A DNA stretch of 48,866 bases from Thermoanaerobaculia bacterium (GCA_027069135.1 JALXFE010000385.1:1-48866), one strand, 5' to 3'; shown: positions 15,964 to 35,498, counted from the first letter of the stretch. Translations and numbers: made by a program. The notes: generated by a model from the sequence alone, not told the origin.

Positions 15964-15974
15964 GACATAAGCAC

Positions 15975-16898: not shown

Positions 16899-16963
16899 AT
16901 AGTCGGCTCTTTGCTTGAGTCTGGAGTCCTTAAGAAGGTGGGTCGCAGGCGCCCGGTGAGGCC

Positions 16964-17338
16964 CTAACGCCCGTCCCCTTCGGCTCTTTGTTCTCCCGGA
17001 CCTTGTATTCGCTTGAAGGCGATAAATTCTTGGACCTCTCGCTGTGCCTCTCCGGGGAGGGAGTTGAATTCACGCACCAAGCTGACGTCGCGGTGAGTAA
17101 AGCTCTCTTCAGCCATCCCGTCGAAGAATTCTCCTACACCCATGTCGAAATCTCCCAGGATCCGGAAGAGGGTGTCCAGGCTGACCCGGTATTCACCCTT
17201 CTCCATGCGGGAAAGGTCGGACTGCTGGATGCCGATCCGCCCGGCAAGCTCGGTCTGGGTCAGGCTCCGCTGCTTGCGCAATTCACGGATTTTCTTACCC
17301 ACGAGTTGGACTTGTCGGATCTTCGCTGGCTTCGCCAT
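16964..17338 (-). CDS. XRE-family HTH regulator heading the TPR/exported-protein cassette
   Basis: A 124-residue DNA-binding protein with a Cro/C1 HTH at about residues 13-70 (LTQTELAGRIGIQQSDLSRMEKGEYRVS, then LDTLFRILGDFD). The short C-terminal part is acidic then basic, ending in a low-complexity tail. The ATG at 17338 has AAGGAC nine bases upstream; a start 22 codons further up has no ribosome site. A TTGACA-N18-TACCAT promoter lies about 65 bp upstream on the same strand. It leads the leftward XRE, TPR, exported-protein run and faces the second TPR/exported pair, so it probably regulates both. It lacks any ligand domain of its own. Confidence 0.87.
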   Translation of the reverse strand: MAKPAKIRQVQLVGKKIRELRKQRSLTQTELAGRIGIQQSDLSRMEKGEYRVSLDTLFRILGDFDMGVGEFFDGMAEESFTHRDVSLVREFNSLPGEAQREVQEFIAFKRIQGPGEQRAEGDGR

Positions 17339-17403
17339 TAGGGATCGTCCTTCTACTGAGCCTAGATTGTACTCGGCACGGGTCCGTAAATACAGGAAGA
17401 ACA

Positions 17404-17433
17404 TGGTATTGCGGCGGGCTCATATGTGTCAAC
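17404..17433 (-). promoter_or_regulatory. Sigma-70-like promoter for the leftward XRE-TPR-exported operon
   Basis: Read on the minus strand, TTGACA (17433-17428) is followed after 18 bp by TACCAT (17409-17404). The -35 is a full consensus match and the -10 matches four of six. The leader to the XRE ATG would be about 60 nt. Confidence 0.55.
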
Positions 17434-17504
17434 CCCATAGCTCCGTGGAATCTGGGGCTCATGACAGCAGATGGGTTAGCCGAGAGTCGGGCCTGAGCGT
17501 TGTT

Positions 17505-17534
17505 CCTGGTTCCGAGTTCCACCTGGTTCCGAGT
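17505..17534 (+). repeat. 13-bp direct repeats (iterons) between the divergent operons
   Basis: CCTGGTTCCGAGT is present exactly at 17505-17517 and 17522-17534, a 17-bp period, ending six bases before the TTGACG -35 box of the rightward promoter. Direct repeats at this position are typical of activator sites, and the adjacent XRE gene is the obvious candidate binder. The rest of the 369-bp spacer (17339-17707) holds the two promoter-like sequences and no further gene that I can support. Confidence 0.6.
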
Positions 17535-17540
17535 CTGGTC

Positions 17541-17570
17541 TTGACGGGAGCCAAAATGGCGCTGTAGCAT
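17541..17570 (+). promoter_or_regulatory. Sigma-70-like promoter for the rightward TPR-exported operon
   Basis: TTGACG (17541-17546), an 18-bp spacer and TAGCAT (17565-17570). Five of six bases match at -35 and four of six at -10. The leader to the ATG at 17708 would be about 130 nt. The 13-bp direct repeats lie directly upstream. Confidence 0.5.
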
Positions 17571-17707
17571 TAGAGGGCTTTGTCTATCGAACAAACTCGT
17601 CGCGAAGGGTGTCAAACGCCTGGCGCGGGGACGTAGCGAGCGATAACATCTAGAGACTCGGCGTCGCGGGCTATAAGGGCTGCTTGCTGGAGGAGATCAA
17701 GAAACTC

Positions 17708-18631
17708 ATGGCGGATCATCTCAAGGCTGAAATTCAAGCAGAGCTTCTCGCTAGGTATGAGGACTTCCGCTCGGAAGTCCGGAAGAAGTTGGCTTTAGGT
17801 AGGCTCTCGGAGGCCCTCGAGATCTGCGACTCGGCGATCGAGTTTGCCCGGGCTCACGACGCACCGGAGCTCATAGACCGGGCGATTGTGAATCGGATCG
17901 GCGTCTCGATCGAGATGGGTTCTACGCAGAGCGAGATCGCCGAGTTAGGCAAGATTCTGCTCCGCGCTTCCAGTCAAGAAGTCCGCTTCTTGGCGGCCTA
18001 TAACCTCGCCTGGGCCTACAAGGGGCGTGAGGAAGTCGAGCGGGCGATCTCCTACGCGAGCCGAGCCTTGCGAGTGGCGGAGACCCTTGGGAACGCCGAA
18101 TGGAAAGCCTCTGCTCTCAATGTCCTAGGACTCTCCCATCTCTCCGGTAGTTATTTTCAAGAGGCGACTACTTTTTTTGCCGAAGGCCTGGAGCTTCTCC
18201 CGGACCGGCGAGAGAGACGCTATGCCGCGCTATTGGATAACTACGGGTATTGCCTGGTCGTACAAGGACTCTTCCGAGAGGGATTTCGAGCCCTCTTGGA
18301 GAGCTTGCGGACGCTACGGCGGCTCGGCGAGAGTTGGGTCGAGACCGCCCCACATATAAGCCTGAGCTTCGCCTACTTGGAACTCGGCAAGGCTCGACCA
18401 GCGAAGCGCCACGGACTTTCAGCTCTGCGGCTGGCCGAGGAAATGGGGGATTCCAAGAGCATCAAGGCTTCCCTCTACCTGCTTGGGGAAGCCGCAAAGC
18501 AAGAAGGGGATGAATTTGCCGCTCGGCGTTTTTTTCAGCGCCTCCAGGAGTCTTTCTATCCGAAGGCGCCCGATCTCATTGATCTCCTCCTCGTCGTTGA
18601 TGCAAGAACGATGGTCAACTTGAAAGCGTAG
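17708..18631 (+). CDS. TPR-repeat protein, copy B of the duplicated cassette
   Basis: A 307-residue tetratricopeptide-type helical protein, paralogous over its whole length to the leftward TPR protein at 15975-16898. Visible repeats include RKKLALGRLSEALEICDSAI, LNVLGLSHLSGSYFQEATTF and SLYLLGEAAKQEGDEFAARRFF. The C-terminal motif FYPKAPDLIDLLLVVDAR...NLKA matches copy A. It has no signal peptide. The ATG at 17708 is chosen because GGAGGAG (17689-17695) precedes it and it gives exactly the same length as copy A; a TTG at 17684 is the alternative. Its stop codon overlaps the AGGA ribosome site of the exported-protein gene 8 nt downstream, so the two are tightly coupled. No HTH is fused to it. 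Confidence 0.83.
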   Translation: MADHLKAEIQAELLARYEDFRSEVRKKLALGRLSEALEICDSAIEFARAHDAPELIDRAIVNRIGVSIEMGSTQSEIAELGKILLRASSQEVRFLAAYNLAWAYKGREEVERAISYASRALRVAETLGNAEWKASALNVLGLSHLSGSYFQEATTFFAEGLELLPDRRERRYAALLDNYGYCLVVQGLFREGFRALLESLRTLRRLGESWVETAPHISLSFAYLELGKARPAKRHGLSALRLAEEMGDSKSIKASLYLLGEAAKQEGDEFAARRFFQRLQESFYPKAPDLIDLLLVVDARTMVNLKA

Positions 18632-18639
18632 GAATCACG

Positions 18640-20064
18640 ATGGACACCCCGAATCGTTGCCGCTATCTGACGCTTTTTGTCCTAGGACTGGTTCTTGGTT
18701 CGCCCTCTTCGGCGTTCGGAAGTAGCGCTCTAATCGACGCGCACGGCCAGGTTTTCTCCGTACAGGTGGGTTCCTTCGACGACCTCTTCCCTGGAGATAA
18801 GGCATGCCTCGGCGAAGAAACCGTAGTTGCTCTGGACAGACACAGCATTTCAGGGACTTTGGAGCGCTTGTTGGTTCCAGGCACTTGCAACGCTGAGGAA
18901 GAGGTCTCTCCGACGTTGATCTATGAGGAGTCCTCCGGCACGGTATTCCTCCTCTGGGAGAGCAGGTCGGGGGCGGAGACCTCTCGGATCTACCTCTCCT
19001 ATCTGGTGGCCGATACATGGTTCGGAGCTCTTGAAGTTACCGGACACCCCGCTACGCTTCGGGGTTCGGCGCAGCTCGTGACGACGCAAGATCAAATCTC
19101 CGTTTTCCAATCCGACGGCACCGCCAGAACCGCCGACCGCAGAATTCTGCATATCGTGTGGTCTGAGGTCGTGGCCACGGGATCCGTCGAGACCTTCTAC
19201 GCTCCGGTCATTCTCGTAGATGGCGAGTTCCTCGGGCATATTCCGCGGCTCTCTCTGCAGGATCTCCCTGCTGGCGCAATAGAGGTAGGCGAGGGATCAG
19301 CGTCGGGTTCTTTCGATCTGTTTCAGCCGGAGTTGATCAGCGGAGTCGATAACAAATCCGTCATGATCGGCTACCTGAACCCTGATTCTCAGCGAGTGGT
19401 TGCGGTTGAGGTGCGGCAACTTCCAGCCGTGCTGTCGTCGATGGCGGCGGAAGCTGCAGACTTTACGGAGGAGGTTGGCTCCTCTCAGCTGAACCGCCCG
19501 GGCGGTATCGAGAGCTTGGCCGGGCAAGTAGGGGCTCGAATCATAGAGCTCGGCCTAGGCGTTCACATCAGCATCCGCGCCTATCTCGCGGCAGAAGTGG
19601 AGCAGGTCATTCTGGAGGAGTCCTTGGGGGCGTCGGGGCCCGGTATTCCTCTCGATCATCTCGCGGGCTCTGTTGGGGCACGGATTATCGAGCTGGGTTC
19701 GAAGATTTTCGGAACCGATGGTCTCGAGAGGGTCTACGAGGACGATCGTCTGAGCGTGATCGCGATTTCCGGAACCGAATCTGAGGGTGAGGATCAGATT
19801 TCTTCCGCAGGTGCTCAGCACCTCCTGCGCTTCTACGCGGTCTCCAGTCGGCCCGTCCCTGAGATCGAGGGGCATAGCGTCAGCTTCCTGGCCTCTAGCG
19901 ACGGGGAGAACGGCCTCCTCTGCTGGCAGGAAGGTGCCTCGGAGATCCGTTATCTCGAGAGCGATGGCGAGGCTTGGGGACCTATCCGAGCGTTGCCGAT
20001 GTCTTCCGGGTTTAGTTACCAGCAGATCCGGGAGATTCTTCGAGAACGAGTCCAGAAGCGCTAG
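18640..20064 (+). CDS. Exported protein of unknown family, copy B of the TPR-linked pair
   Basis: A 474-residue protein with a signal peptide (hydrophobic residues 10-27, likely cut after AFG or nearby). It is collinear with the exported protein at 14587-15963. Shared blocks include LIYEESSGTVFLLWESR, RRILHIVWSE, FYAPVILVDGEFLG and the C-terminal SSDGENGLLCWQ...IRYLESD...REILRERV. The internal element VGARIIELG is repeated (about residues 297-305 and 345-353), as LRPRMVEFG is in copy A. I recognise no named domain or catalytic motif. Copy B has three cysteines in its first 83 residues (Cys7, Cys56, Cys83) and one later (Cys429); mature copy A appears to have none. It is translated 8 nt after the TPR gene. 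The downstream permease gene begins 88 bp later in the same direction. Confidence 0.8.
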   Translation: MDTPNRCRYLTLFVLGLVLGSPSSAFGSSALIDAHGQVFSVQVGSFDDLFPGDKACLGEETVVALDRHSISGTLERLLVPGTCNAEEEVSPTLIYEESSGTVFLLWESRSGAETSRIYLSYLVADTWFGALEVTGHPATLRGSAQLVTTQDQISVFQSDGTARTADRRILHIVWSEVVATGSVETFYAPVILVDGEFLGHIPRLSLQDLPAGAIEVGEGSASGSFDLFQPELISGVDNKSVMIGYLNPDSQRVVAVEVRQLPAVLSSMAAEAADFTEEVGSSQLNRPGGIESLAGQVGARIIELGLGVHISIRAYLAAEVEQVILEESLGASGPGIPLDHLAGSVGARIIELGSKIFGTDGLERVYEDDRLSVIAISGTESEGEDQISSAGAQHLLRFYAVSSRPVPEIEGHSVSFLASSDGENGLLCWQEGASEIRYLESDGEAWGPIRALPMSSGFSYQQIREILRERVQKR

Positions 20065-20152: not shown

Positions 20153-20923
20153 GTGACTCAGCACCTTTTCCTTCTCAGAGAGTTCGTGCGCCGAGATTTC
20201 AAGGGGCGCTATGCCGGGTCGGCGTTGGGCTTCCTGTGGTCCTTCGTTCAGCCTCTCTTCCAGCTCGTCCTCTTCAACTTTGTTTTCGCCACTGTGATGA
20301 ATCTATCGCCGGCTGGGGAGCGGACGGAGAATTTCGCTGTCTTCTTGTTCTGCGGTCTCCTGCCCTGGACGGCTTTTAGTGAAGGTGTACAGCGGGCCTC
20401 GACCGCGATCACGGAAAACGCGATTCTGGTCAAAAAGCTGAACTTCCCCTCCGAGATTCTCGTGTTGGCGGTGTGTATGGCGGCGCTTCTCCATGAGGGG
20501 ATCGCCGCGGTCGTATTCCTGGTGATTCTCGGTCTCTTCGATCAGCTGTCGCTGGCGGGATTGCCGGTACTTCTCATCGCGCTGCCACTCCAGATGGCCC
20601 TGACTCTGGGGCTGGGCCTGATGCTCAGCTCGGTCCAGGTGTTCTTTCGGGACACGGCTCAAGTCTTGGGCATGATCTTCATGGGATGGTTCTACATGAC
20701 CCCCATCGTTTACCCCTTGAGCCTTGTTCCGATCGAGTTTCGACCGTGGTTGGAGTTGAATCCGCTGACGACTTTGGTGGGGCTCTATCGGCAAGCCTTC
20801 CTGGGCGGAACGGTGCCTTGGGGGCCGGGGCTGGGTTGGCTGGCCGTGGCTAGCGGGGCTAGCCTGGTCATCGGCCTACGGGTGTTCCGTTCGCTCAAGC
20901 CCGCCTTCGCCGACGAAATCTAG
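20153..20923 (+). CDS. wzm: ABC-2 type polysaccharide export permease (Wzm/KpsM/TagG-like)
   Basis: A 256-residue integral membrane permease with about six hydrophobic segments. The N-terminal cytoplasmic motif REFVRRDFKGRYAGSALGFLWSFVQPLFQL is the classic Wzm/TagG start, and GWFYMTPIVYPLSL is the conserved late loop. It moves undecaprenol-linked O-antigen or capsule polysaccharide across the inner membrane with an ATPase partner. The start is GTG at 20153. Unusually, the ATPase gene is not adjacent: the matching Wzt-like gene starts at 34242, after 13.3 kb of secreted-protein genes. It is convergent with the PKD gene ending at 21010; the 86-bp gap shows no clear terminator. Confidence 0.88.
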   Translation: MTQHLFLLREFVRRDFKGRYAGSALGFLWSFVQPLFQLVLFNFVFATVMNLSPAGERTENFAVFLFCGLLPWTAFSEGVQRASTAITENAILVKKLNFPSEILVLAVCMAALLHEGIAAVVFLVILGLFDQLSLAGLPVLLIALPLQMALTLGLGLMLSSVQVFFRDTAQVLGMIFMGWFYMTPIVYPLSLVPIEFRPWLELNPLTTLVGLYRQAFLGGTVPWGPGLGWLAVASGASLVIGLRVFRSLKPAFADEI

Positions 20924-21009: not shown

Positions 21010-23820
21010 TCAGGGAATTGTCGCAGACCAGGCGGAGGTGTTCCCGCTCTCAAATCCGTCTGAAAAGAGGGTGTTTCCGCCGAGGATATTCACTGTCGCC
21101 ATGCCGGTGATTCCGTTACAGCCGGTATTCGTCGCGGTCAGGGTCTTTACCCCCTCGGTATCCCAGCTGACGGCCAGGCTCGAGCTATTCGAGGAGCCGG
21201 TTCCGCCGTCCGTCGTCCACGTCCAACCGTCGGAAACCCCGCGGCAGTCGTCAGCGCTCGCCGTGAAGCTGAGGTTCGTTCCCGTCGAGCCGGTGGCTGG
21301 GCCGGAGATCTGGATGACCGGATTGGCCGTCGCGCCGCCGACGTTGATCGTCGGATGCCCTTCGAAAAGATCCTCGGCCCCTCCGCGGCGAATCTTCAAC
21401 GTGGGGAAGTAGACGCCGGAGGCACTGTAGGAATGGGAGGTCACGGGAGCGGCGTTTCCTGAGTTTTCAAACACAGCGTCGCCGTCCCAGTCATAGTCCC
21501 AAAAGTCCGGGCTGCCTACCGAGGAGTCGAGAAAGACGATATTTTGCCCAGGATCAGCGAAGCAGGTATTTCCCTGGCAAAAGAGGTTCGCCATGAAGTT
21601 GGCCTCGAGAGGGGTGGTATCCACGATGTCGACCGAGATGGCGCTGCTCTCCCGCTCCGCCTCGACGCAGTTACGGACTTTGACCCGAACACTGTAGGTG
21701 GCGATGGCGGTGTAGGTGTGTTGCGGGTTGGGCCCGGCGAGGGGGTCGGAAGTCCAACCCTCATAGCCATCGCCATCAGGCCCACCGCCGGGATTGTCAC
21801 CGAAATTCCAATTCCATTCTGTAGCGCCGGCGACGGTGGCGTGGAATTGCACCGTCGGCGAGGCTGGCGGGGCTGGTTGGCCGTCGTAAGTCGGGGCGAA
21901 GCCATCGGCCGGAGGTAAGGCCGCCAGGGGGTTGAGAGTGACGGCGGCGCTGGTTGCCATGGCGGAGCCGTCCGCATTGGTGACGGTGATTTCTGCGACG
22001 TAGGTGACGCCGGTCGCATCGCCCGGATCACTGGTCCAGACGAAGGGGTTGACGTTGCCTCCGGTCGCCACCGTGCCCCCTCCCGTGAGGTTAACTTGCC
22101 AGGAGAAGGTGTTGGGCGGCCTGCCGGTGACGCCTTCGGCGGTAAAGGTGACCGGTTGGCAGACCAGGGCTGGGTTCGGCGATGCAGAGACACTGGCCAC
22201 GACCGGTGCCGGGTCGAGAACCTGAAGCACCTGGTTGGTCGAGCCGCTTCCGGCCCCATTGGTGGCGAGGAGACTCACGGTCTTGCTTCCTACGGTGGGG
22301 AAGTTGATCCCGGTCGGGTTTTGCTGGGTCGATGTCGAGGGAATTCCATCGGGTAAGAAATCCCAACTCCACGCCGCCGGTCCTCCGGTGGATTGGTCCG
22401 AGAAGTTTATGGGCGTCCCGGGATAGATCTCCGCCGGGGTGAAGCCGAAATCAGCAACCGGCGGGGAGCCGCCGGTCCGTCGGTGGATATCGAAGATTGA
22501 ATGAGCCGCCCGGTAGAAATGGTCGTTGTAGAACTTGCCCATACGGGGCGCGACCCGATTGAAGCCGTGAACGCCGTTGCGGCGGTAATACCAACCCCAA
22601 TAGCTCACTGCCTCGCCGTTGACCACCACCGTGCCCTGGGGTGAGATGTCGTTCGGAGAGGAGGGGTTCGTGACATCGAAAAGCCATTCGTTCTGGTTGC
22701 CGCCTTGGCAATCTTCTTCCCGTCCGAAGTAGAGGAACGGGGTTGCATTACTTTGGGAGAACGTCACTGTACCCGCGGAGGAGATGGGCATCGCCTGGGA
22801 CCAGAGAGCACCGCCGAGCCCGCAGCTTCCACCGGTGATGCAGCTCACGTTGTAGATACGGCCCTGGTCCAGAGTTCTCACCGCCAGGTAATGGCTGGAG
22901 CCCTGCTGGAAGAGGGCCAGACTATAGATCGCGTCTCCGGTGAGACCTGTCATCACCCTGCTTGGCGAGGCCGGGCTGCTGACGTTCCAGATCTCGAAGC
23001 CCCGGACGGAAAGGCCGGAAGCGATGGCCACGAAATCGCCGGCGCCGTCTATCGACTGGACGCGGGTCCGTGTGCCGATCTTGCCTACGAAGACTCCGGG
23101 GCAGACGCTGCCTCCCGTCGTTTCGTCGCAACGTCCGGTGAGGTTCTTGGCCGCCGTCATGTTGTAGGCGAAAAATCCGCCTTGAACAGAGGTCGCCTGG
23201 TCGACGGCCGAAAATGCGTAGTCGGTTCCGCCGATGGTCGTGGCGTAGACTTGACTCGCCCAGAAGCCTCCACCGTGATGCTGGTATTTCAGAACCGGGT
23301 TCGACTCCGTAGAGGTGTCGAAGATTGCCGTTCCGACCCCGTAGCGGCCGACCAGCGCTAGAGCTTTCGAGTTGCCGTCGGGAGCATCGATGTCCTCGTA
23401 AATGAAAAAGGCGTGGGCGTCCGGGGTCCAGGTAAGACCGGAGCTACGAAATCCAACGTCGTAGACCCTTGAGGGAGTTCCCGGGTTGCTTCGCGCATTC
23501 CAGACTTGGAGGCGGCGATTCGCCACCATGAACACCCAACCATTCTCTACGTCGAGGGCAGTGCTGTAGGGGTTGACCTCGAAATCACCGATTTGATCGA
23601 AGCCGGTGTTGTCGCGGTTGGCGGGGAGCATGCCGCCATCCGTGGCTTCCAGACTGCCCCAGAGTTGCGAAGGAGCACCGGTGGCCGGAGTGTGGCATTC
23701 AGAGTAGGTGCATTGGCCATGAAAGCAATCCTGGCCACCTAGAGCGGCGGGGGCTGTCATGAGGAAGAGGGACAGCGCGGCCGAGCGCATCGGGTCTAGA
23801 CGGAAAAACAACCGCTTCAT
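21010..23820 (-). CDS. Secreted LVIVD-propeller/PKD protein with DGFESG C-terminal tail (936 aa)
   Basis: Large secreted protein with a signal peptide (MRSAALSLFLMTAPAALGG region). Right after the cleavage site is a cysteine cluster, CFHGQCTYSECHTPA. Residues about 40-450 form a propeller-like region with repeated (I/V)WN...P..P elements (LQVWNARSNPGTP, FEIWNVSSPASP, LFDVTNPSSP), like LVIVD repeats. PKD-type sandwiches follow from about residue 460 (FSDQSTGGPAAWSWDFLPDG; EWNWNFGDNPGG; FWDYDWDGD). The last residues are DGFESGNTSAWSATIP. It is a close paralogue of the first half of the 29374-34203 protein, in opposite orientation. Extracellular adhesion or binding is likely, but the ligand is unknown. 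An inverted repeat lies about 115 bp upstream. Confidence 0.85.
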   Translation of the reverse strand: MKRLFFRLDPMRSAALSLFLMTAPAALGGQDCFHGQCTYSECHTPATGAPSQLWGSLEATDGGMLPANRDNTGFDQIGDFEVNPYSTALDVENGWVFMVANRRLQVWNARSNPGTPSRVYDVGFRSSGLTWTPDAHAFFIYEDIDAPDGNSKALALVGRYGVGTAIFDTSTESNPVLKYQHHGGGFWASQVYATTIGGTDYAFSAVDQATSVQGGFFAYNMTAAKNLTGRCDETTGGSVCPGVFVGKIGTRTRVQSIDGAGDFVAIASGLSVRGFEIWNVSSPASPSRVMTGLTGDAIYSLALFQQGSSHYLAVRTLDQGRIYNVSCITGGSCGLGGALWSQAMPISSAGTVTFSQSNATPFLYFGREEDCQGGNQNEWLFDVTNPSSPNDISPQGTVVVNGEAVSYWGWYYRRNGVHGFNRVAPRMGKFYNDHFYRAAHSIFDIHRRTGGSPPVADFGFTPAEIYPGTPINFSDQSTGGPAAWSWDFLPDGIPSTSTQQNPTGINFPTVGSKTVSLLATNGAGSGSTNQVLQVLDPAPVVASVSASPNPALVCQPVTFTAEGVTGRPPNTFSWQVNLTGGGTVATGGNVNPFVWTSDPGDATGVTYVAEITVTNADGSAMATSAAVTLNPLAALPPADGFAPTYDGQPAPPASPTVQFHATVAGATEWNWNFGDNPGGGPDGDGYEGWTSDPLAGPNPQHTYTAIATYSVRVKVRNCVEAERESSAISVDIVDTTPLEANFMANLFCQGNTCFADPGQNIVFLDSSVGSPDFWDYDWDGDAVFENSGNAAPVTSHSYSASGVYFPTLKIRRGGAEDLFEGHPTINVGGATANPVIQISGPATGSTGTNLSFTASADDCRGVSDGWTWTTDGGTGSSNSSSLAVSWDTEGVKTLTATNTGCNGITGMATVNILGGNTLFSDGFESGNTSAWSATIP

Positions 23821-25904: not shown

Positions 25905-25933
25905 TTGACAGCGGTACCTTACCGTCCTATATT
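25905..25933 (+). promoter_or_regulatory. Near-consensus sigma-70 promoter for the secreted protein at 26224
   Basis: TTGACA (25905-25910), a 17-bp spacer and TATATT (25928-25933): a full match at -35, five of six at -10 and ideal spacing. It is the best promoter in the window and lies about 280 nt before the gene it must serve. Confidence 0.8.
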
Positions 25934-25939
25934 TCAGTC

Positions 25940-26223
25940 CAGACTCCGGCCTCAATCTGTGTTCAAGGCTTCTGCACGTTGAGAACCGCTTCACGATGGG
26001 GCCAGTCGGGATAGATATTCAGGCTTTACAGCTATGAAGAGTTTTTGAGCAGGAGGTGATGTCGCTCTTTTAGAAGAGGAGAAGAGGAGTTAAGTAGTTG
26101 CCGCCGCGGAGATCTCTGCGGATCGGTAACCTGTCGTCTCTGGGAACCGGAGGCGGCTCTTTATCCAGCTCACATAGAGGCACTGTGCCTCAGTGGAGCT
26201 AAATTGAACGGAGATTGTTAGTA
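25940..26223 (+). promoter_or_regulatory. Long structured 5' leader of the abundant secreted-protein gene
   Basis: The transcript from the promoter at 25905 would carry about 284 untranslated nt. Visible structure includes an imperfect palindrome CCGCGGAGATCTCTGCGG (26104-26121). There is also a strong hairpin with inner arms GAGGCA/TGCCTC (26177-26191), extended by AGCTC (26168-26172) pairing with GAGCT (26196-26200). GGAG (26210-26213) sits 10 nt before the ATG, just outside the hairpin. I do not recognise a known riboswitch class. Roles in mRNA stability or translational control are inference. Confidence 0.5.
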
Positions 26224-27561
26224 ATGAAGAAATTCATTGCCTTGATTGCCTTTGCCGGCCTGCTCGTGCTCGGTGGCCAGGCGTTCGCGGAAATCGGCGC
26301 GATTGATTCGGTGCCGGCCGCAACCCTGCTGCTTCCCTACTTCGAGGTCGGTCTCGAGAACAGCGGCAGCGGTGTGACCACCCTGTTTTCTGTCAACAAC
26401 GCCTCGGCCGCCCCGGTCGTGGCTCACGTTACCCTGTGGACCAAGCTGGCCCGCCCGACCATCGATTTCGACCTGTATCTCACGGGTTATGACGTCGTAA
26501 CGGTCAACCTGCGCGACATCTTCACCACCGGTGCGATCCCGCAGACCGGCCCGAACTTCGACATCGGCGACGATCCGATCTCGCCGAATGCCCCGGGTGA
26601 GTTCTCCGATCCGGACGCGGCCCCTCCGGGCTGCTCCTTCCCGTTGCCGGCGACCATTCCCGCTTCCCTGCGTGAGTACATCCGCAACCTGCACACCGGT
26701 CTTGCGGCCCCTCCGGGCTTCGACAACTCCGGCCTCTGCGGCGCCCAGGATGAAGGCAACGCTACGGCGGCGGACGGTATCGCTACCGGCTACATCACCA
26801 TCGACGTGGTCAACGACTGCTCGCTGCTCTTTCCCGGTAACCCCGGTTACTTCGCAGACGGTGGCACGGGTATCGCCTCCAACCTCAACGCCCTCTGGGG
26901 CGACTACTTCCTGGCCGATCCGGCAAATGCCTTCGCTCAGGGTGACTCTCTCGTCCACGTCGAGGCCATGGACTCCGTACAGGCGGGCTTCTGGGCTCCC
27001 GGCGACTACACCTTCTACGGTCGCTACCTCGCTTTCGATGCGAGCGACAACCGCGAGCCCCTGGCTACCACCTGGGCCACGCGCTACTTCGCCGGAACCG
27101 TCGGACCTTTCAACGACGATTCCGACATCATCTGCTGGCGTGACTCCGGTCTCGACGACAGTGCCTTCTTCGCTTGTGGCACCACCCCGCCGCCGTACCC
27201 GCTGAACCAGAACCAGATCGTCATTTTCGACGAGCAGGAGAACCCGGTAGTCGTCGAAGGCTCCCCGTTCTCCCCGCCGCCGGTTGGCGACACGGTCCTG
27301 CCTTGCGATTGCGCGACGACGCGTGCGAATGCCTCCGATTTCGGCACCATCTTCGACTTCGGTTGGTTCTACATGAACCTCAACACCAGCACGGGTGCCA
27401 TTCCGGACCCGATCAAGCAGTCCTTCGTGACCACTGTTCACAGTGCTTCCGGATTGTTCAGTGTCGGTTTCCAGGCTGTCCACCTCGACAGCGCGCTGGC
27501 CAAGACCTTCTCGGTCACCACCGCGCCCGCCGATGTGAACCTGCCTGTCGAGGCTCCGTAA
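26224..27561 (+). CDS. Abundant secreted protein of unknown family, tandem copy 1
   Basis: A 445-residue exported protein with a textbook signal peptide (MKKFIALIAFAGLLVLGGQAFA, cleaved before EIGAID). I recognise no named family. The mature part is acidic and rich in Asp, Pro and aromatic residues. It has paired-looking cysteines (PGCSF, GLCG, NDCSL, ICWRD, FACG, PCDC) that probably form disulfides. The ATG at 26224 has GGAG 10 nt upstream; a TTG three codons earlier is unlikely. Codon choice is strikingly biased towards GGC, ACC, GAC, CTG and AAG compared with neighbours, and there is a near-consensus promoter and a strong terminator. Together these suggest very high expression. It is followed by a paralogue at 27761-29101. 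Confidence 0.8.
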   Translation: MKKFIALIAFAGLLVLGGQAFAEIGAIDSVPAATLLLPYFEVGLENSGSGVTTLFSVNNASAAPVVAHVTLWTKLARPTIDFDLYLTGYDVVTVNLRDIFTTGAIPQTGPNFDIGDDPISPNAPGEFSDPDAAPPGCSFPLPATIPASLREYIRNLHTGLAAPPGFDNSGLCGAQDEGNATAADGIATGYITIDVVNDCSLLFPGNPGYFADGGTGIASNLNALWGDYFLADPANAFAQGDSLVHVEAMDSVQAGFWAPGDYTFYGRYLAFDASDNREPLATTWATRYFAGTVGPFNDDSDIICWRDSGLDDSAFFACGTTPPPYPLNQNQIVIFDEQENPVVVEGSPFSPPPVGDTVLPCDCATTRANASDFGTIFDFGWFYMNLNTSTGAIPDPIKQSFVTTVHSASGLFSVGFQAVHLDSALAKTFSVTTAPADVNLPVEAP

Positions 27562-27593
27562 GCTTCGTCCGTCACCTAGTGTGACCACAGGAG

Positions 27594-27629
27594 AGAGGGT
27601 GAGCCCATTTGGGTTCACCCTCTTTTTCT
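27594..27629 (+). terminator. Rho-independent terminator after tandem copy 1
   Basis: AGAGGGTGAGCCC (27594-27606) pairs with GGGTTCACCCTCT (27610-27622, one G-T wobble) across a 3-nt loop, followed by TTTTCTT. The stem is long and GC-rich, so it should separate copy 1 from copy 2 transcription. Confidence 0.85.
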
Positions 27630-27665
27630 TTGGGAGGGACTCCGGAGACGGAATTTGCGAAGAGC

Positions 27666-27694
27666 TTCAAAAAACGAGCCAACGGAGTTAGAAT
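27666..27694 (+). promoter_or_regulatory. Possible promoter of tandem copy 2
   Basis: TTCAAA (27666-27671), 17 bp, TAGAAT (27689-27694). It lies downstream of the terminator and about 65 nt before the ATG at 27761. The match is weaker than for copy 1, in line with the weaker codon bias of copy 2. Confidence 0.4.
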
Positions 27695-27760
27695 CTCTAT
27701 TGGGTAGAGGACTGCGAGTCGTCTGCCTGCGCTACTTTCACCGAACAGGAGAGCACGGAG

Positions 27761-29101
27761 ATGAAGAATTGGGTCCTTGTTGGGGTCGTGTGCGGGCTAC
27801 TGGGAATGGCGGCTGGGTCCGCTCACGCAGAGATCGGTGCCATCGATGCTGTGCCGGCAGCCACACTCCTTCTTCCGTACTTCGAGGTCGGTCTGGAGAG
27901 CTGCGCCGAGCAACCTACGACCCTTTTCTCGGTCAACAACGCGTCCGCGGCCCCGGTGATAGCGCACGTGACGCTGTGGACCAAGTTGGCCCGGCCAACC
28001 ATCGATTTCGACATCTATCTCACGGGCTATGATGTCTTCACGGTCAATCTTGCAGATCTCTTCATTCGAGGCACCCTTCCCCAGACCGGGCCGAATTTCG
28101 ATATCGGGGACGACCCCATAAGTCCGAATGCGCCGGGAGAGTTTTCTGACCCGGATGCAGCGCCACCGGGATGTTCGTTTCCCCTTCCTAGCCAAATTCC
28201 GGCCAGCCTCCTGCAATATATCCGGAACCTCCATACCGGATTTCCGGCTCCTGCCGGCTTCGATAATGCAGGGCTCTGCGGTGCCCAGCCGCAAGGTCTA
28301 GCGACACCGGCGGAGGGGGTGGCGACGGGCTACATCACGATCGATGTCGTCAATGATTGTTCGCTGCTCTTTCCGGGAAACCCTGGCTACTTTGCAGACG
28401 AAGGCACGGGAATCGCAGCCAACGACAACGTTCTTTGGGGTGACTACTTTCTTGCCAACCCGAACGAGAGTTTTGCCCAAGGCGACTCCTTGGTGCATAT
28501 CGAGTCCATGAGCTCCGTACGAAATGGATTTTGGGCACCGGGGGACTACACCTTCTATGGTCGCTACCTCTCCTTCGATGCGAGCGATAACCGCGAACCT
28601 CTCGCAACGACCTGGGCGACTCGCTATTTTGCCGGGACCGTTGCTCCCTTTGACGATGATTCCGACATCATCTGCTGGCGGGACTCCGGGCTGGACGATA
28701 GCTTTTTCTTCGATTGCGGGGTGACGCCGAGCCCGTATCCTTTGGGCCAGAATCAGATCGTGATGTTCGATGAACAGGAGAACCCGGTGGTGGTCGAGGG
28801 CTCGCCCTTTTCTCCCCCTCCCGTAGGCATAACGGTGGTGCCCTGCGCCTGCGCGACAACACGGGCCAACGCCAACGACTTCGGAGCGATTTTCGACTTC
28901 GGTTGGCTGTACCTGAATCTGAATACATCGACGGGATCGCTCGTCGATCCGATCAAACAATCGTTCTTAACCACTATCCACAGTGCCTCGGGTCTATTCA
29001 GCGTCGGCTTTCAGGCGGTGCACCTGGACAGTGCGCTGGCCAAGACCTTCTCGGTCACCTCTTCACCCGCCGATGTAAATTTGCCCGTCGAAGACGATTA
29101 G
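27761..29101 (+). CDS. Secreted protein of unknown family, tandem copy 2
   Basis: A 446-residue paralogue of the upstream protein, collinear from the signal peptide (MKNWVLVGVVCGLLGMAAGSAHA, then EIGAID) to the end (ADVNLPVEDD). Most differences are conservative and the cysteines of copy 1 are kept, with one added near mature residue 25 (ESCAEQ). Codon choice is much less biased than in copy 1, so copy 2 is probably expressed at a lower level or under other conditions. The ATG follows AGGAG and CGGAG sequences. It has its own possible promoter beyond the terminator. Function is unknown; an abundant outer-surface or matrix component is a guess. Confidence 0.8.
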   Translation: MKNWVLVGVVCGLLGMAAGSAHAEIGAIDAVPAATLLLPYFEVGLESCAEQPTTLFSVNNASAAPVIAHVTLWTKLARPTIDFDIYLTGYDVFTVNLADLFIRGTLPQTGPNFDIGDDPISPNAPGEFSDPDAAPPGCSFPLPSQIPASLLQYIRNLHTGFPAPAGFDNAGLCGAQPQGLATPAEGVATGYITIDVVNDCSLLFPGNPGYFADEGTGIAANDNVLWGDYFLANPNESFAQGDSLVHIESMSSVRNGFWAPGDYTFYGRYLSFDASDNREPLATTWATRYFAGTVAPFDDDSDIICWRDSGLDDSFFFDCGVTPSPYPLGQNQIVMFDEQENPVVVEGSPFSPPPVGITVVPCACATTRANANDFGAIFDFGWLYLNLNTSTGSLVDPIKQSFLTTIHSASGLFSVGFQAVHLDSALAKTFSVTSSPADVNLPVEDD

Positions 29102-29373: not shown

Positions 29374-32300
29374 ATGCTCATCTCCCGTCCCAGTTTTCCC
29401 AAGTCGAATAGTCAGAGCTCTGTTTCGATCCTGACTCTTGCTGCCGTGACTGCGGCCGTTGCACTGATCATCCCCGTTACACCTGCCCTGGGGCAGTGCT
29501 TTCACGGCCAGTGCACGTTTTCTGAATGTCATACACCAGCTCGAGGGGCGTCCCCTCAGCTCTGGGGTGAGTTAGCACCCACCGACGGCGGCCAACTTCC
29601 GGCGACGCGCGACAACACCGATTTCGATCAAATCGGTGACTTCGAGGTCAATCCCTACAGCACTGCCCTCGACGTGGAAAATGGTTGGGTGTTCATGGCC
29701 GCTAACCGCAGGCTCCAAGTCTGGGACGCTCGGGGCGCCAAGGCAGGGAATCCAACCCGGCTCTTCAACCAGGGTTTCCGTAGCTCCGGCCTGACCTGGA
29801 CCCCGGATGCCCACGCCTTTTTCATCTTCGAAGATATCGACGCTCCCGACGGCGACTCGAAGGTCCTCGCACTGGTCGGCCGCTACGGAGTCGGTACGGC
29901 GATCTTCGACACCTCTACGGAGTCGAACCCGATTCTGAAATACCAGCACCACGGTGGAGGCTTTTGGGCCAGTCAGGTGTACGCCACGACCATCGGCGGG
30001 ACCGACTACGCATTCTCGGCCATCGACCAGCCGACCGCGGTCCAGGGCGGATTCTTTGCTTACAACATGACGGCGGCCAAGAACCTCACCGGACGTTGCG
30101 ATGAGACCACCGGAGGCAGTGTCTGCCCCGGCGTCTTCGTTCGCAAGATCGGTACACGGACCCGAGTGCTTTCAGTAGACGGCGCCAGCAATTTCGTCGC
30201 CATCGCCTCCGGTCATTTCATCCGCGGCTTCGAGATCTGGAACGTAAGCAACCCGGCCTCGCCGAATAGGGTCATGGAAGGTCTCTCGGGAGACGCGGTC
30301 TATAGTCTAGCCCTCTTCCAGCAGGGCTCCAGCCATTACCTGGCAGTCAGAACTCTCAACCAGGGCCGTATCTACAACGTGAGCTGCATCACCGGGGGAA
30401 CCTGTGGCCTTGGCGGCGCGATCTGGTCCCAGACGATGCCCTCCTCCTCCGCAGGAACCGTGACCTTCTCTCGGAGTAATGCGACCCCGTTTCTCTATTT
30501 TGGACGGGAAGAAGATTGCCAAGGCGGCGACCAGAACGAATGGCTTTTCGATGTCACGAACCCCTCCTCTCCCAACGACATCTCACCCCAGGGCACGGTG
30601 GTGGTCAACGGCGAGGCGGTGAGCTATTGGGGTTGGTATTACCGCCGCAACGGCGTTCACGGCTTCAACCGGGTCGCGCCCCGTATGGGCAAGTTCTTCA
30701 ACGATCATTTCTACCGGGCGGCTCATTCGATCTTCGATATCCATCGCCGTACCGGAGGTTCTCCGCCAGCAGCCAATTTCGCCCATTCCCCCTTGGAAAT
30801 TTACCCGGGAACCCCGATCAATTTCACGGACCAAAGCAGTGGAGCCCCGACCGCATGGGATTGGGATTTCTTACCCGACGGCAACCCCGCGAGCTCTACA
30901 GCGCGCAACCCCAGCGGGGTCCAATTTCCGACGGAAGGTAGCAAGACGGTCAATCTGCAAGTGACCAACGCTGCCGGGAGTGACTCTACGAGCCAGACTT
31001 TGCAAGTCCTGGATCCGGCACCGTCGGTGGGCAGCGTCTCGGCTTCGCCCAATCCGGCTCTCCTCTGCCAGCCGGTCACTTTTGGCGCCCAGAATGTTAC
31101 CGGTCGGCCACCTCGGGCGTTCTCTTGGGAGGTCAGCCAGACCGGGGGTGGAGTGGTCGCCAATGGCGGCAACGTCAACCCCTTCGTATGGACCAGCTTA
31201 CCTAACGATGCAACGGGGGTCACCTATACCGCCCAGGTCACGGTGACCAGCGCAGACGGCTCGGACTCAGCGACCAGCGCGGCGGTGACTCTGAACCCCC
31301 TGGTGGCTCTCCCCCCCTCCGACAGCTTCGCGCCGACCTACGTCGGTCAACCCAACGATCCACCTACCGGGACTGTGGACTTCAATGTCTCCGTGCCCGG
31401 TGCTACGGAATGGAATTGGAATTTCGGGGACAATGCCGGCGGTGGGCCCGACGGCGATGGCTATGAAGGCTGGACCTCGGATCCGGTCGCCGGCCCGAGC
31501 CCGACCCACAGTTACACACAGACGGGCACGTACAACGTCCGGGCCAAGGTTCGCAATTGCGTCGAGGCGGAGCGGGAAAGCTCTGCCATCAGCGTCAATA
31601 TCACTAGCATCACTCCCCTCGAGGCGAGTTTTGCCGCCACCGGAGGCGTCTCCTGTGGTGGGGGAACTTGCTTCGGGCAAGTAGGGACTCCGATCGTATT
31701 CACGGATAGCTCCACAGGCGGACCGACTACCTACGACTACGATTGGGACGGTAACGGAGCTTTCGAGGACATCAACAATCCAGCGCCGGTGACGAGCCAT
31801 ACCTACACAGCGACGGGGAGCTTCCATCCGAGGTTGCGGGTAAAGCTCGGCGCTCAGCAAGACATCTTCACCCACGTCGCACGGATCACGATAGATGGTG
31901 GCGGTGGTGGCGGAGGTGTTTCGATCACGGTTACCGGGCCGACAAGCGGTACCGTCGGCCAGTCTCTACGATACTCAGCGTCTGCTTCCGGATGTACCCC
32001 GACGGCTACCGGGTGGAATTGGGCGACCGGCGGCGGGTCTATCAGTGGTACCCGCAACGGGCCCTCGATCAACGTATCCTGGTCGAGCTCCGGCTCCAAG
32101 CTCATTCGCGTTACGAATATCAGCTGCGGGGCGACTCAGGGAAATCGCTCTGTGACGATCACTGGTGGTGGCGGCGGAGGCGGTGGTGGTGGTGGTGGAA
32201 ATGGCGGCCTCGACGCGGTCCTTAACTTCTCTCCACCGACACCGGAGGTCGGGGAGACCGTGAATTTCAACGGCAGTTCCTCCCGGGGCGGGCCGACGAG

Positions 32301-34203
32301 CTTCATCTGGAATTTCGGAGACGGTGGATCCGCGAATTCAGCCCAGGCTACCCACACCTACACGAGGGCGGGTTCCTACTCCGTCACCTTGAGCATTTCG
32401 AAGCAGGATAGCTCCTGCACCTTCGGCACCTGCTCTGACGAGGAGACCCAAACGGTCGTCGTCAGTGACAACGGTCCACCGCCGCTGGTCGCAAGGTTCT
32501 CCGTCAACGCAGGTTGTTTTGGTACTTCAGGCCAGGAAATTTGCGATGCCGATGTCGGCCAGGAGCTGCAGTTCAACGATATTTCTCTCGGTGATGTGAC
32601 GAATCGCAGTTGGGCTTTCGGTGATGGTGCGACCTCGACGGCGGCTACACCAACCCATACCTTCACGGCGCCCGGTACCTACATCGTCCGCCTCAGCGTC
32701 AGCAATGCCGACGAGCAAGACGACGCCGCGAAGACCATAAATATCGAGGGACCGCCGCCGCCGGAGCTACCGGATTCCGTACTCCTGCCGTGGGTAGCCC
32801 AGAGCGACGGCGCCTTGGATCAAGTTAGCGCCGTCTACGTTCACAATCCGGATAGCCAACCGCGAAGCTACGTCCTGCGCTTCTTGGAGAGGAGAGCACC
32901 TTCCAACACCGATCCGGCGCCGGAGATGACCATGAATCTTGCAGCGGGCGCCACCGCCTATTTCCCGGACATTCTCGGGGACCAATTCGGCGTGGCCAAT
33001 GTCTCGGGCTTCATCGAAATCGAGGCCCAGGCCGAAGGAGCCCTCGCTCCGACCGCGGTTTCCTACCACCGGACGTTCAACCCGGACGGTTTGACCTTCG
33101 GGCATGCGGTACCCGCCGTCACCGCCGTCGATTTCCCCCGCTCGGTGGGTGGCAGTCTCAACGGAACCTTCCATCTGATGGGCCTCAACGACAACGGCGA
33201 GCGCTTGGCGTTCTTCGGTCTGACCAACCCGGGAGACTCAGCGGCCCAATTTCAGCTTCGGTTCTTCAACCAGCTCGGCGAAGTGATTGGCAATACCCCG
33301 GCCCCCATGTCCATCGGGGCCAAGAACAACCGGCAGTTCCAGGTCGAATCCTTACGCCAGGTTTTCGGGGTCGAGGAGACCTCCGATTACCGGATCGAGA
33401 TCGAGATCCTCAGAAACGGGCCGCTGTTCATTTATGGCGCCAACCTGAGGTTACCGGCGCTCGATCCATCCTACGTCCGCCCTGGGGATCCCACCGTGGC
33501 CAAGACCTACCTGCTGGGCGTCTTGGCGACAGAAGGTCTCAACAACACGCAATGGCAGACCGACGCGGTTATCGCCAACGTCGCAAACACCCAGGTCGAA
33601 GCGAGGGTCTCCTTCACCAGCGCAGGCAACGGAGCGCAACCTCTGGAGGCAATCGTCCAAACCCTGCTTCCGGGTGAGACGCTACGCTTGGCGAATATTC
33701 TCGCGGATCGTTTTGGGTTGGATGCAGATAGCAGCCTTGGCTTTGTCACCATCGAGAGCGACGGCGTCAATGGTTCCTACCCCATCGTCCAGGCGGAGAC
33801 CTACGACGTGGCCAATCCGACAGGACGGTTTGGGCAGTTCATGCCAGCCCTGCGGGACGACCAGTCGGCGTCGGCCGGCCAGCGCCAGATCTTGACCGGT
33901 CTGCAACAGGACGAAGCCTCCCGCTCGACCCTTTGGCTCCTCAATCCCGGTGACGTCGCCGGCGAGTACGACCTCATTTATCGGGCGCTGAACGGATCCG
34001 AACTAGGTCGTATCTCCGCCTATCGAGTGGCCGCCGGGAGTATGCGTCAGATCAACCCTGGGGCCCATCCCCTGGCCGACGGGGCCGCCGCCGACGGATT
34101 CACGATCCAGATCGTGATTCGTCGGGGCTCCCTGCTGAGTGCGGCGCAGGTGGTCAATAGCATTACCAACGACCCCGCCTTCGTCGCCGGCGTCACCCGA
34201 TAG
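29374..34203 (+). CDS. Giant secreted LVIVD-propeller/multi-PKD protein with four C-terminal repeats (1609 aa)
   Basis: Signal peptide with cleavage near VTPALG/QCFHGQC, then the cysteine cluster CFHGQCTFSECHTPA. Residues about 40-460 match the propeller region of the 21010-23820 protein almost residue for residue. PKD-like domains follow (about 462-550, 650-750, 750-840, 845-930, 948-1035, 1035-1128), with typical WNFGDG/WAFGDGATS motifs. A run of 12 glycines (codons 32164-32199) acts as a linker. From about 1131 to 1607 there are four tandem repeats of about 120 residues (for example AVYVHNPDSQPRSYVLRF, LWLLNPGDVAGEYDLIYR) with no counterpart in the shorter paralogue. The DGFESG tail is absent. 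AGGAG precedes the ATG. Extracellular adhesion or matrix role inferred; ligand unknown. Confidence 0.86.
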   Translation: MLISRPSFPKSNSQSSVSILTLAAVTAAVALIIPVTPALGQCFHGQCTFSECHTPARGASPQLWGELAPTDGGQLPATRDNTDFDQIGDFEVNPYSTALDVENGWVFMAANRRLQVWDARGAKAGNPTRLFNQGFRSSGLTWTPDAHAFFIFEDIDAPDGDSKVLALVGRYGVGTAIFDTSTESNPILKYQHHGGGFWASQVYATTIGGTDYAFSAIDQPTAVQGGFFAYNMTAAKNLTGRCDETTGGSVCPGVFVRKIGTRTRVLSVDGASNFVAIASGHFIRGFEIWNVSNPASPNRVMEGLSGDAVYSLALFQQGSSHYLAVRTLNQGRIYNVSCITGGTCGLGGAIWSQTMPSSSAGTVTFSRSNATPFLYFGREEDCQGGDQNEWLFDVTNPSSPNDISPQGTVVVNGEAVSYWGWYYRRNGVHGFNRVAPRMGKFFNDHFYRAAHSIFDIHRRTGGSPPAANFAHSPLEIYPGTPINFTDQSSGAPTAWDWDFLPDGNPASSTARNPSGVQFPTEGSKTVNLQVTNAAGSDSTSQTLQVLDPAPSVGSVSASPNPALLCQPVTFGAQNVTGRPPRAFSWEVSQTGGGVVANGGNVNPFVWTSLPNDATGVTYTAQVTVTSADGSDSATSAAVTLNPLVALPPSDSFAPTYVGQPNDPPTGTVDFNVSVPGATEWNWNFGDNAGGGPDGDGYEGWTSDPVAGPSPTHSYTQTGTYNVRAKVRNCVEAERESSAISVNITSITPLEASFAATGGVSCGGGTCFGQVGTPIVFTDSSTGGPTTYDYDWDGNGAFEDINNPAPVTSHTYTATGSFHPRLRVKLGAQQDIFTHVARITIDGGGGGGGVSITVTGPTSGTVGQSLRYSASASGCTPTATGWNWATGGGSISGTRNGPSINVSWSSSGSKLIRVTNISCGATQGNRSVTITGGGGGGGGGGGGNGGLDAVLNFSPPTPEVGETVNFNGSSSRGGPTSFIWNFGDGGSANSAQATHTYTRAGSYSVTLSISKQDSSCTFGTCSDEETQTVVVSDNGPPPLVARFSVNAGCFGTSGQEICDADVGQELQFNDISLGDVTNRSWAFGDGATSTAATPTHTFTAPGTYIVRLSVSNADEQDDAAKTINIEGPPPPELPDSVLLPWVAQSDGALDQVSAVYVHNPDSQPRSYVLRFLERRAPSNTDPAPEMTMNLAAGATAYFPDILGDQFGVANVSGFIEIEAQAEGALAPTAVSYHRTFNPDGLTFGHAVPAVTAVDFPRSVGGSLNGTFHLMGLNDNGERLAFFGLTNPGDSAAQFQLRFFNQLGEVIGNTPAPMSIGAKNNRQFQVESLRQVFGVEETSDYRIEIEILRNGPLFIYGANLRLPALDPSYVRPGDPTVAKTYLLGVLATEGLNNTQWQTDAVIANVANTQVEARVSFTSAGNGAQPLEAIVQTLLPGETLRLANILADRFGLDADSSLGFVTIESDGVNGSYPIVQAETYDVANPTGRFGQFMPALRDDQSASAGQRQILTGLQQDEASRSTLWLLNPGDVAGEYDLIYRALNGSELGRISAYRVAAGSMRQINPGAHPLADGAAADGFTIQIVIRRGSLLSAAQVVNSITNDPAFVAGVTR

Positions 34204-34241: not shown

Positions 34242-35498
34242 ATGAGTGAATCTCTGGTTTCCGTTCGAGGATTGTCGAAGGTCTACAAGGTCTACTCCAG
34301 TCCTTGGGATCGCCTTCTGGAGGGCGTACTTCGTCGCCAACGACACCGGGACTTTGTGGCCCTGGAGGAAATCGCTCTCGACCTTGCCCCGGGGGAAGCC
34401 TTAGGGATCATCGGCGAGAACGGCGCCGGCAAGAGCACCCTGATGAAAATCCTTGCGGGGGTCACGGCGGCGACCTCCGGCGAGGTCTCGATCCGGGGGA
34501 AGGTGGCATCGATCCTGGAGCTCGGCTCCGGGTTTCATCCGGAGTTCTCCGGTCGGGAAAACATCGTTCTCAATGCCGCCATGTTGGGGTTGAGCCCCGG
34601 CGAGGTCGAGGCCAAGACCCCGGAGATCATCGCTTTTAGCGAATTGGGTGATTTCATCGATCAGCCGGTCAAGGTCTACTCCTCCGGAATGGCGATGCGG
34701 CTCGGTTTCGCCATCGCGACCCAGGTAGAGCCACAGGTTCTCATCATCGACGAAGCTCTCTCCGTGGGCGACGGCTACTTCCAGAAGAAGTGTGTGGACC
34801 GATTGGTGGAATTCGTGGACGAGGGCGGTTCCCTGATCTTCTGCTCCCACGCCCTGTACTACGTTTCCGCTTTCTGCCAGCGGGCTCTGTGGCTGAAGAA
34901 CGGAAAGATCGAGGCCTTGGGTCCGGCGGGTAGTGTCATTCGGCGCTATGAGTCATTCTTGTTGGAGAAGTCTCAAGCCGCGAGCCCCGAGGACCGACCG
35001 GAGCAGGAAACGGTCCTCTCCCCGACGCGAATTACCGAGGTGCGCTTGAAGAAGGGGAGCTCTTCTAAGGAGGCCTCGACCTTTCGCTATGGAGAGCCGT
35101 TGTTTCTCGAGTTGACCTTCGAGTCCGAGACGAAGGATCAGGAGCTCCATCTGGGTTTGGGCATCGATCGATTGGACGGAGTTCAAGTGGCGGCGTTTTC
35201 GACCTTCCACGATGGATTGGCGCCCTTTTCCGGAAGTACGAGCTACACGCTATCCCTCGAGCTGCCTCACCTCCCGCTGGCCAGTGGCGAGTTTGCGATC
35301 CATGTCTTCCTCGCCGGTGAGCGAGCCCTCCACGTCTACGATACAAAGCTGGTTCGCCCCGCCTTCCTTCTCCAAGGAGAGGAATTCGAGGTCGGGCTCA
35401 CCCGGATTCCCCACCGTTGGCACACTCCCGACGGAGAGACCGTGCCGCCGGCGGGGCTTTCGGATGCTGGCTTGATCTCCGTCCGCGCTCCACGATGA
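34242..35498 (+). CDS. wzt: ABC transporter ATPase for polysaccharide export with C-terminal cargo-binding domain (Wzt-like)
   Basis: A 418-residue ATPase that drives O-antigen or capsule export with the Wzm permease. The N-terminal ABC domain has Walker A GENGAGKST (58-66), the signature region YSSGMAMRLGFAIA (about 146-159) and Walker B VLIIDEAL (about 165). The Wzt-specific block LGSGFHPEFSGRENI is present. Residues about 255-410 form a beta-rich domain (FRYGEPLFLELTFES, LGLGIDRLDG) like the Wzt C-terminal domain, which recognises the chain terminus of finished polymer. So export here is probably coupled to a capping modification. Its permease partner lies 13.3 kb upstream. The stop overlaps the next gene as ATGA. 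Confidence 0.9.
   Translation: MSESLVSVRGLSKVYKVYSSPWDRLLEGVLRRQRHRDFVALEEIALDLAPGEALGIIGENGAGKSTLMKILAGVTAATSGEVSIRGKVASILELGSGFHPEFSGRENIVLNAAMLGLSPGEVEAKTPEIIAFSELGDFIDQPVKVYSSGMAMRLGFAIATQVEPQVLIIDEALSVGDGYFQKKCVDRLVEFVDEGGSLIFCSHALYYVSAFCQRALWLKNGKIEALGPAGSVIRRYESFLLEKSQAASPEDRPEQETVLSPTRITEVRLKKGSSSKEASTFRYGEPLFLELTFESETKDQELHLGLGIDRLDGVQVAAFSTFHDGLAPFSGSTSYTLSLELPHLPLASGEFAIHVFLAGERALHVYDTKLVRPAFLLQGEEFEVGLTRIPHRWHTPDGETVPPAGLSDAGLISVRAPR

Follow-up and report, generated by a model that had tools for sequence, protein, structure and literature searches.

Stand-alone Shine–Dalgarno elements are known from a few Bacillus messenger RNAs (mRNAs), and they are explained there by RNase J. 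In E. coli, the distal standby site of tisB consists of a single-stranded region and a pseudoknot, which bind S1/30S (PMC7708055). We describe here a stand-alone Shine–Dalgarno element from a bacterium placed, through its relatives, in the Thermoanaerobaculia (Acidobacteriota). It is found in the leader of the first of two tandem genes, called copy 1 and copy 2 below, which encode predicted secreted proteins. The stretch of DNA that was analysed (48,866 nt, called the window) corresponds to contig C385 in an assembly of 7.17 Mb, which is 97% complete. The bacteria of this order come from soil and water, and the Thermoanaerobaculia are widespread and hardly cultured. An earlier note on the window had recorded the length of the leader and missed its main feature, the stand-alone Shine–Dalgarno; the leader element is the new part of the finding. 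The reading that we favour, with somewhat better than even confidence, is that a dedicated leader docks the 30S subunit and boosts copy 1, a dominant exported protein.

The conserved element, AnnYTTnAnCRGGAGGTGAT, lies on the plus strand at 26040–26061, the copy 1 version ending TTTTTGAGCAGGAGGTGATG. Its RGGAGGTGAT part is complementary over 10 nt to the 16S rRNA 3' end, which reads TGGATCACCTCCT, with a purine at the element position facing a U of the 16S. Among 12 genomes of the order, 8 yielded this 16S end; relatives were used, as it was not found in the bacterium's own genome, where the rRNA operon is perhaps missing from the assembly. ATG, GTG or TTG occurs 4–12 nt past GGAGG in none of the 25 leaders, where the remainder of these leaders predicts 9.5 (P about 2e-6; with one leader per lineage, 4e-5). 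The element is a stand-alone Shine–Dalgarno with no productive start codon. Further down, a shorter site belonging to the gene, GGAGATTGTTAGTA, forms an ordinary and weaker ribosome-binding site (RBS) at 26210–26223 (+), just before the ATG at 26224. An RBS of the GGAGATTGT type is common to copy 1 and many of its relatives.

From leader to leader, the element is located 77–211 nt ahead of the start codon. In the alignment of upstream regions its block is kept while the remaining leader diverges, beyond alignment between families. The consensus was obtained from 24 leaders, GGAGGTGA being the selection criterion and the other positions being unselected for most rows; outside this selected core, A-12, T-7, T-6, A-4 and C-2 are conserved. 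The genomes of the order are assemblies, apparently mostly metagenome-assembled ones, and the counts take related genomes separately, with lineage-collapsed values where these were computed. In 59 genomes, the strict pattern gave exactly 5 matches, all upstream of members of the copy 1 family, and the reversed control gave 0. Of the 28 matches to the relaxed pattern, YTTTNANNRGGAGGTGA (reversed control: 1), 16 stand in front of family members, one of these being deduced because its gene is truncated by the end of a contig; a further 11 are ahead of a different secreted protein in the genus g5, and 1 is in an apparently unrelated position. The element is carried by 19 of the 80 collected family members, at 80–210 nt from the start codon and mostly as one copy per genome, with two in G001. 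In a sample of 396 genomes of the phylum, the pattern with its final T matched 15 of the 24 that belong to the order and 11 of the 372 others (controls among the latter: 5). The element occurs nearly once per genome in this order of Thermoanaerobaculia and is rare elsewhere in the phylum.

Genus g5 brings further information on the relation between the leader and the protein. In 11 genomes (L100–L110), the same promoter type, the element and a constant signal peptide precede an unrelated secreted protein, and the leader is therefore separable from the protein that follows it. No homologue of the copy 1 family was found in those 11 genomes. The g5 protein lies about 215 nt past the element, and its mature part is very variable between species; judged from this sequence, it looks like a fast-evolving surface protein. 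A single orthologous clade of leader copies was also considered and rejected, the label needing 16 changes on the protein tree, about as many as shuffled labels. Loss of the leader from duplicates and exchange of coding sequences behind the leader are both possible.

The other parts of the copy 1 cassette match the earlier description. The sigma-70-type promoter, TTGACA-N17-TATATT (25905–25933, +), had been described as the best of the window; it has 11 of the 12 consensus bases and is the sole 11/12 match in the 48.9 kb. The same type, TTGACA-N17/18-TATAGT, is seen upstream of many leader copies in relatives. With the transcription start inferred from the promoter, the 5' leader extends over 284 nt (about 25940–26223, +), and is indeed long. 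Copy 1 itself (26224–27561, +) encodes a predicted Sec-exported protein of 445 amino acids (aa), and is followed by an intrinsic terminator with a 12-bp stem and a T-run (27595–27631, +). This terminator was identified from the fold, the region 27585–27640 reaching -33.3 kcal/mol with a z of -6.2, which bears out its proposed strength; a simple scanner gave no match there. Strong terminators are commoner behind leader copies than behind other copies (13 of 22 versus 19 of 84).

The strong codon bias attributed to copy 1 was confirmed against 118 genes of at least 200 aa from its own genome, a small sample of that genome from which no genome-wide maximum is claimed. The effective number of codons (ENC) of copy 1, 35.0, is below that of all 118 genes, and its EF-Tu-likeness (z 3.7) above that of all of them, so that its bias clearly exceeds the average. 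The fraction CGC/CGT+GGC/GGT amounts to 0.94, versus a mean of 0.50 +/- 0.09 and a maximum of 0.73 in the sample, and 0.80 for EF-Tu. Ribosomal proteins had been suggested as the reference, but their genes are almost unbiased (own genome, L070 and G000:C82). EF-Tu, which is biased, is therefore the better yardstick, and copy 1 is more biased than either, by ENC as well as by its preferred Arg/Gly codons. The same pattern is seen in all 12 genomes with both kinds of copies: the ENC of the leader-bearing copy is below the mean of its paralogues, and its share of preferred Arg/Gly codons is above that of every paralogue (sign test p 0.00024). Codon selection and the conserved dedicated leader thus support, as far as sequence can tell, the very high expression that the earlier note had proposed for copy 1.

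Copy 2 (27761–29101, +; 446 aa) has no leader element. Its paralogy is clear, with 82% identity to copy 1 in protein and 73% in DNA. Where the two copies share an amino acid, third codon positions agree in just 49%, which points to an old duplication; recent gene conversion between the copies is ruled out, since third positions differ widely. The promoter-like site of copy 2, TTCAAA-N17-TAGAAT (27666–27694, +), is weaker, as had been observed, its 9/12 match being near chance level. The codons described as mixed prove average (ENC 52, CGC/CGT+GGC/GGT fraction 0.46), and suggest a weakly expressed paralogue in a family that often has many copies. The structural role proposed earlier for copy 1, with copy 2 as its backup or conditional variant, is conjectural. 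As a separate observation, an open reading frame antisense to copy 1 is longer than copy 1.

According to the mechanism that we propose, the output of copy 1 would be set by the whole cassette, with its strong sigma-70 promoter, long leader bearing the element, downstream ordinary RBS and strong terminator, whereas tandem copies such as copy 2, which are devoid of the cassette, would be weakly expressed. From the 16S complementarity and the avoidance of start codons, we infer base-pairing of the element with the 16S rRNA 3' end, by which a 30S subunit would be docked on the untranslated leader, with no initiation there. The docked 30S might raise output in either of two ways, which we consider about equally plausible. 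It could act as a standby site from which the RBS further down is fed over a spacer that is mostly folded; alternatively, it could block the leader against decay initiated by RNase E. In computed folds, the copy 1 leader plus first codons has a z of -3.2, and the spacer between element and gene is on average more folded than shuffles (mean z -1.9).

Several observations weigh against this docking mechanism. Folding predicts the element to be no more accessible than other parts of these leaders (mean percentile 0.35), and so gives no support for free access of the 30S. The upstream half of the element, AnnYTTnAnC, is not accounted for by 16S pairing. In about two thirds of the leaders, an AUG (or GUG/UUG) follows GGAGG at just 2–3 nt, a feature that the mechanism does not account for. 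The best promoter match is 22–28 nt from the element in about 11 of 28 leaders and roughly 110–200 nt away in most others, and no single 5'-end model therefore fits all leaders. Spacing of the promoter-like site is enriched at 24 nt (z 3.8); the idea that the element always comes with a proximal promoter was rejected, as only those 11 or so leaders have one. As for the protein, the sugar binding considered below is deduced from similarity of fold.

An alternative explanation is a stabiliser of the STAB-SD type, as in Bacillus cry3A, in which the 30S bound to the element blocks the 5'-to-3' exonuclease RNase J and keeps the mRNA stable. The combination of a Shine–Dalgarno lacking a productive start codon, a long 5' untranslated region (UTR) and a heavily expressed gene fits this well, and the cry3A element, near position -129, is at a similar distance (PMC4113751). 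The leaders with a promoter-like site ending 22–28 nt upstream would also place the element near the 5' end. However, no member of the RNase J family turned up in the 40 genomes of the order that were searched, while 10 of 14 control genomes gave one. The nuclease half of the STAB-SD mechanism is therefore missing; the own genome has RNase E/G instead. In addition, according to a review (PMC3997798), lacZ in E. coli is not shielded from RNase E by a ribosome at the 5' end, an observation which also speaks against the protection route of the docking mechanism. A stabiliser acting through RNase J thus appears unlikely, even if it is the best placed of the alternatives. A block of RNase E scanning, following the model of Richards and Belasco as cited in PMC11012335, is a possible substitute for the RNase J route and belongs to the docking mechanism that we favour.

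Two other explanations take up the upstream half of the element and the overlapping AUG. A riboswitch, or the target of a small RNA or regulator, could resemble a Shine–Dalgarno by chance; the leaders are folded, and AnnYTTnAnC is conserved beyond the 16S pairing. Rfam covariance models nevertheless gave no match to the leader at gathering or permissive thresholds, no conserved structure was identified among divergent leaders, and the conserved core is the exact 16S complement, down to the purine facing U. We regard such a regulatory site as slightly less probable than the stabiliser, and a short leader peptide as marginally less probable again. In the latter case, the AUG overlapping GGAGGTGATG would be used, and its translation or re-initiation would control the downstream gene. 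This AUG overlaps the Shine–Dalgarno in most leaders (at 26059–26061 in the window), being created in 15 of 24 by the G following GGAGGTGAT, and bacteria, Acidobacteria among them, often have short leader genes (PMC4833913). Yet a spacing of 2 nt is too tight for initiation of the normal kind, the AUG is absent from several lineages (GATC, GATA, GATT, GAGT), and productive start codons are avoided. Two leaders have GUG, and one UUG, at 3 nt spacing. Reading frames from the overlapping AUG range in length from 2 to 67 codons and are not visibly conserved; known re-initiation peaks about 10–16 nt ahead of the gene, not about 150 nt. Lastly, the gene could be an ordinary strong one with a long leader, the element being inherited by descent and functionless. 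The evidence consists of genome assemblies, which leaves some room for this, but the element is kept where the surrounding leader is no longer alignable, leader copies are scattered on the protein tree, and both the specificity of the pattern and the codon association argue for a function. We consider functionless descent very improbable.

Beyond copy 1, the 30S-docking reading can be extended to the order as a whole. We put forward tentatively, and with less confidence than for copy 1, that the order keeps a portable single-gene cassette, about one per genome, before its dominant exported protein, whatever the identity of the latter, and that in these RNase J-free bacteria the parked 30S would act by standby feeding or by a block of RNase E scanning.

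The protein family was found in 33 of 59 genomes of the order, with 1–17 matches each, often in tandem, and a third, distant paralogue is located on contig C138. Outside the order, record titles indicate a few Binatia, Schekmanbacteria, Myxococcales, Lysobacteraceae (including the isolate Chiayiivirga flava) and others. Secretion of copy 1, as claimed earlier, is supported by the N-terminal sequence: the predicted signal peptide, read from the sequence, covers residues 1–22 (...GGQAFA|EIG; 26224–26289, +), and Ala22 is invariant in the 32-member alignment A1. The earlier note had recognised no family, which remains true for Pfam (no match in any of 77 scanned members) and for NCBIfam (none for copies 1 and 2). 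A Pfam AIRS match to copy 1 (E 0.014, below cut-off) was taken as chance, as no member passes E 0.01.

The predicted fold, in contrast, is recognisable as two sandwiches resembling ASRAH/TM1070. AlphaFold2, run with an alignment of 77 members, gave a model of copy 1 with a predicted local distance difference test (pLDDT) of 87.4 and a predicted template modelling (pTM) score of 0.89. The N-terminal beta-sandwich (residues 30–248; 26311–26967, +), which has a long insertion, matches Thermotoga TM1070 (1nc7) with Z 8.8, 111 residues being aligned at a root-mean-square deviation (rmsd) of 3.2; the runner-up is Anabaena ASRT (Z 6.4), and unrelated rows start from 4.0. The C-terminal beta-sandwich (residues 250–440; 26971–27543, +), predicted alone, again has 1nc7 as its top match (Z 7.9, 107 residues, rmsd 3.5; next row 4.2). 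A Z near 8 can reflect a common arrangement, yet two separate domains share the same top match. Foldseek E-values for the model are weak. Members of the ASRAH superfamily are predicted sugar or small-molecule binders, with dyads or tetrads as secreted forms, and their hallmarks are a Trp at strand 1 and a nearly invariant Asn ending strand 2 (De Souza et al., PMC2739507). The Asn has a counterpart in N59, which closes strand 52–59 in 76 of 77 members, and is not seen in the C-domain. The Trp at the start of strand 1 is missing, columns 20–59 having Trp in at most 3 of 77 members, and PAATLLLP occupies that place. Sequence searches of PDB and of families gave no relative, and hmmsearch of PDB sequences (A2, E up to 1; A4, E up to 10) listed neither 1nc7 nor 2ii7. 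Because the signature Trp is absent and there is no sequence link, ASRAH membership is not claimed; the model looks like a secreted ASRAH-type dyad. On this basis, the protein is probably a sugar- or glycan-binding one, at the surface or outside the cell.

Copies 1 and 2 are flanked by two large paralogous secreted PKD-domain proteins (21010–23820, -, and 29374–34203, +), the N-terminal halves of which are very similar. The C-terminus of the longer one is made up of four repeats, each about 100 aa long, whose family was not recognised; a relationship between these repeats and the N-domain was rejected, hhalign being negative. Polysaccharide-export type ABC permease and ATPase genes (20153–20923 and 34242–35498), 13 kb apart, enclose the secreted-protein genes, copies 1 and 2 included, and are followed by glycosyltransferase-like genes. 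Two divergent two-gene modules, which look like mirror-image paralogues, occupy 14587–20064, with TPR-like proteins (15975–16898, -, and 17684–18631, +) next to secreted ones (14587–16068, -, and 18640–20064, +).

A conserved element in an RNase J-free order makes it testable whether a 30S subunit parked on untranslated RNA is by itself sufficient to raise output. It also points to the probable dominant exported protein of Thermoanaerobaculia and provides a marker for such proteins in related genomes, even when they are unrelated to each other, while the predicted fold gives a structural entry point to a family without a name in any database.

Compared with the secreted actinobacterial dyads of the ASRT/TM1070 (ASRAH) group (PMC2739507), the protein shares a predicted eight-stranded N-domain sandwich, the Asn at the end of strand 2 and two domains per secreted protein. 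It differs from them by the lack of a sequence-level link, of the strand-1 Trp and of a lipobox, by its long N-domain insertion and by its phylum. The leader resembles the tisB standby site in having a putative ribosome landing site that precedes the real RBS by at least about 100 nt and is separated from it by a structured region. Unlike the single-stranded region and pseudoknot of tisB, the landing site is here a perfect Shine–Dalgarno, both 30S binding and sequestration of the RBS being putative. The likeness to STAB-SD, as found in Bacillus thuringiensis cry3A and related Bacillus 5' stabilisers, lies in a stand-alone, non-initiating Shine–Dalgarno complementary to 16S, in a long 5' UTR and in a heavily expressed protein. 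In contrast to Bacillus, the order has no RNase J, the element has a conserved upstream half outside the Shine–Dalgarno and occurs about once per genome at a variable distance from the promoter, and its stabilising effect is putative.

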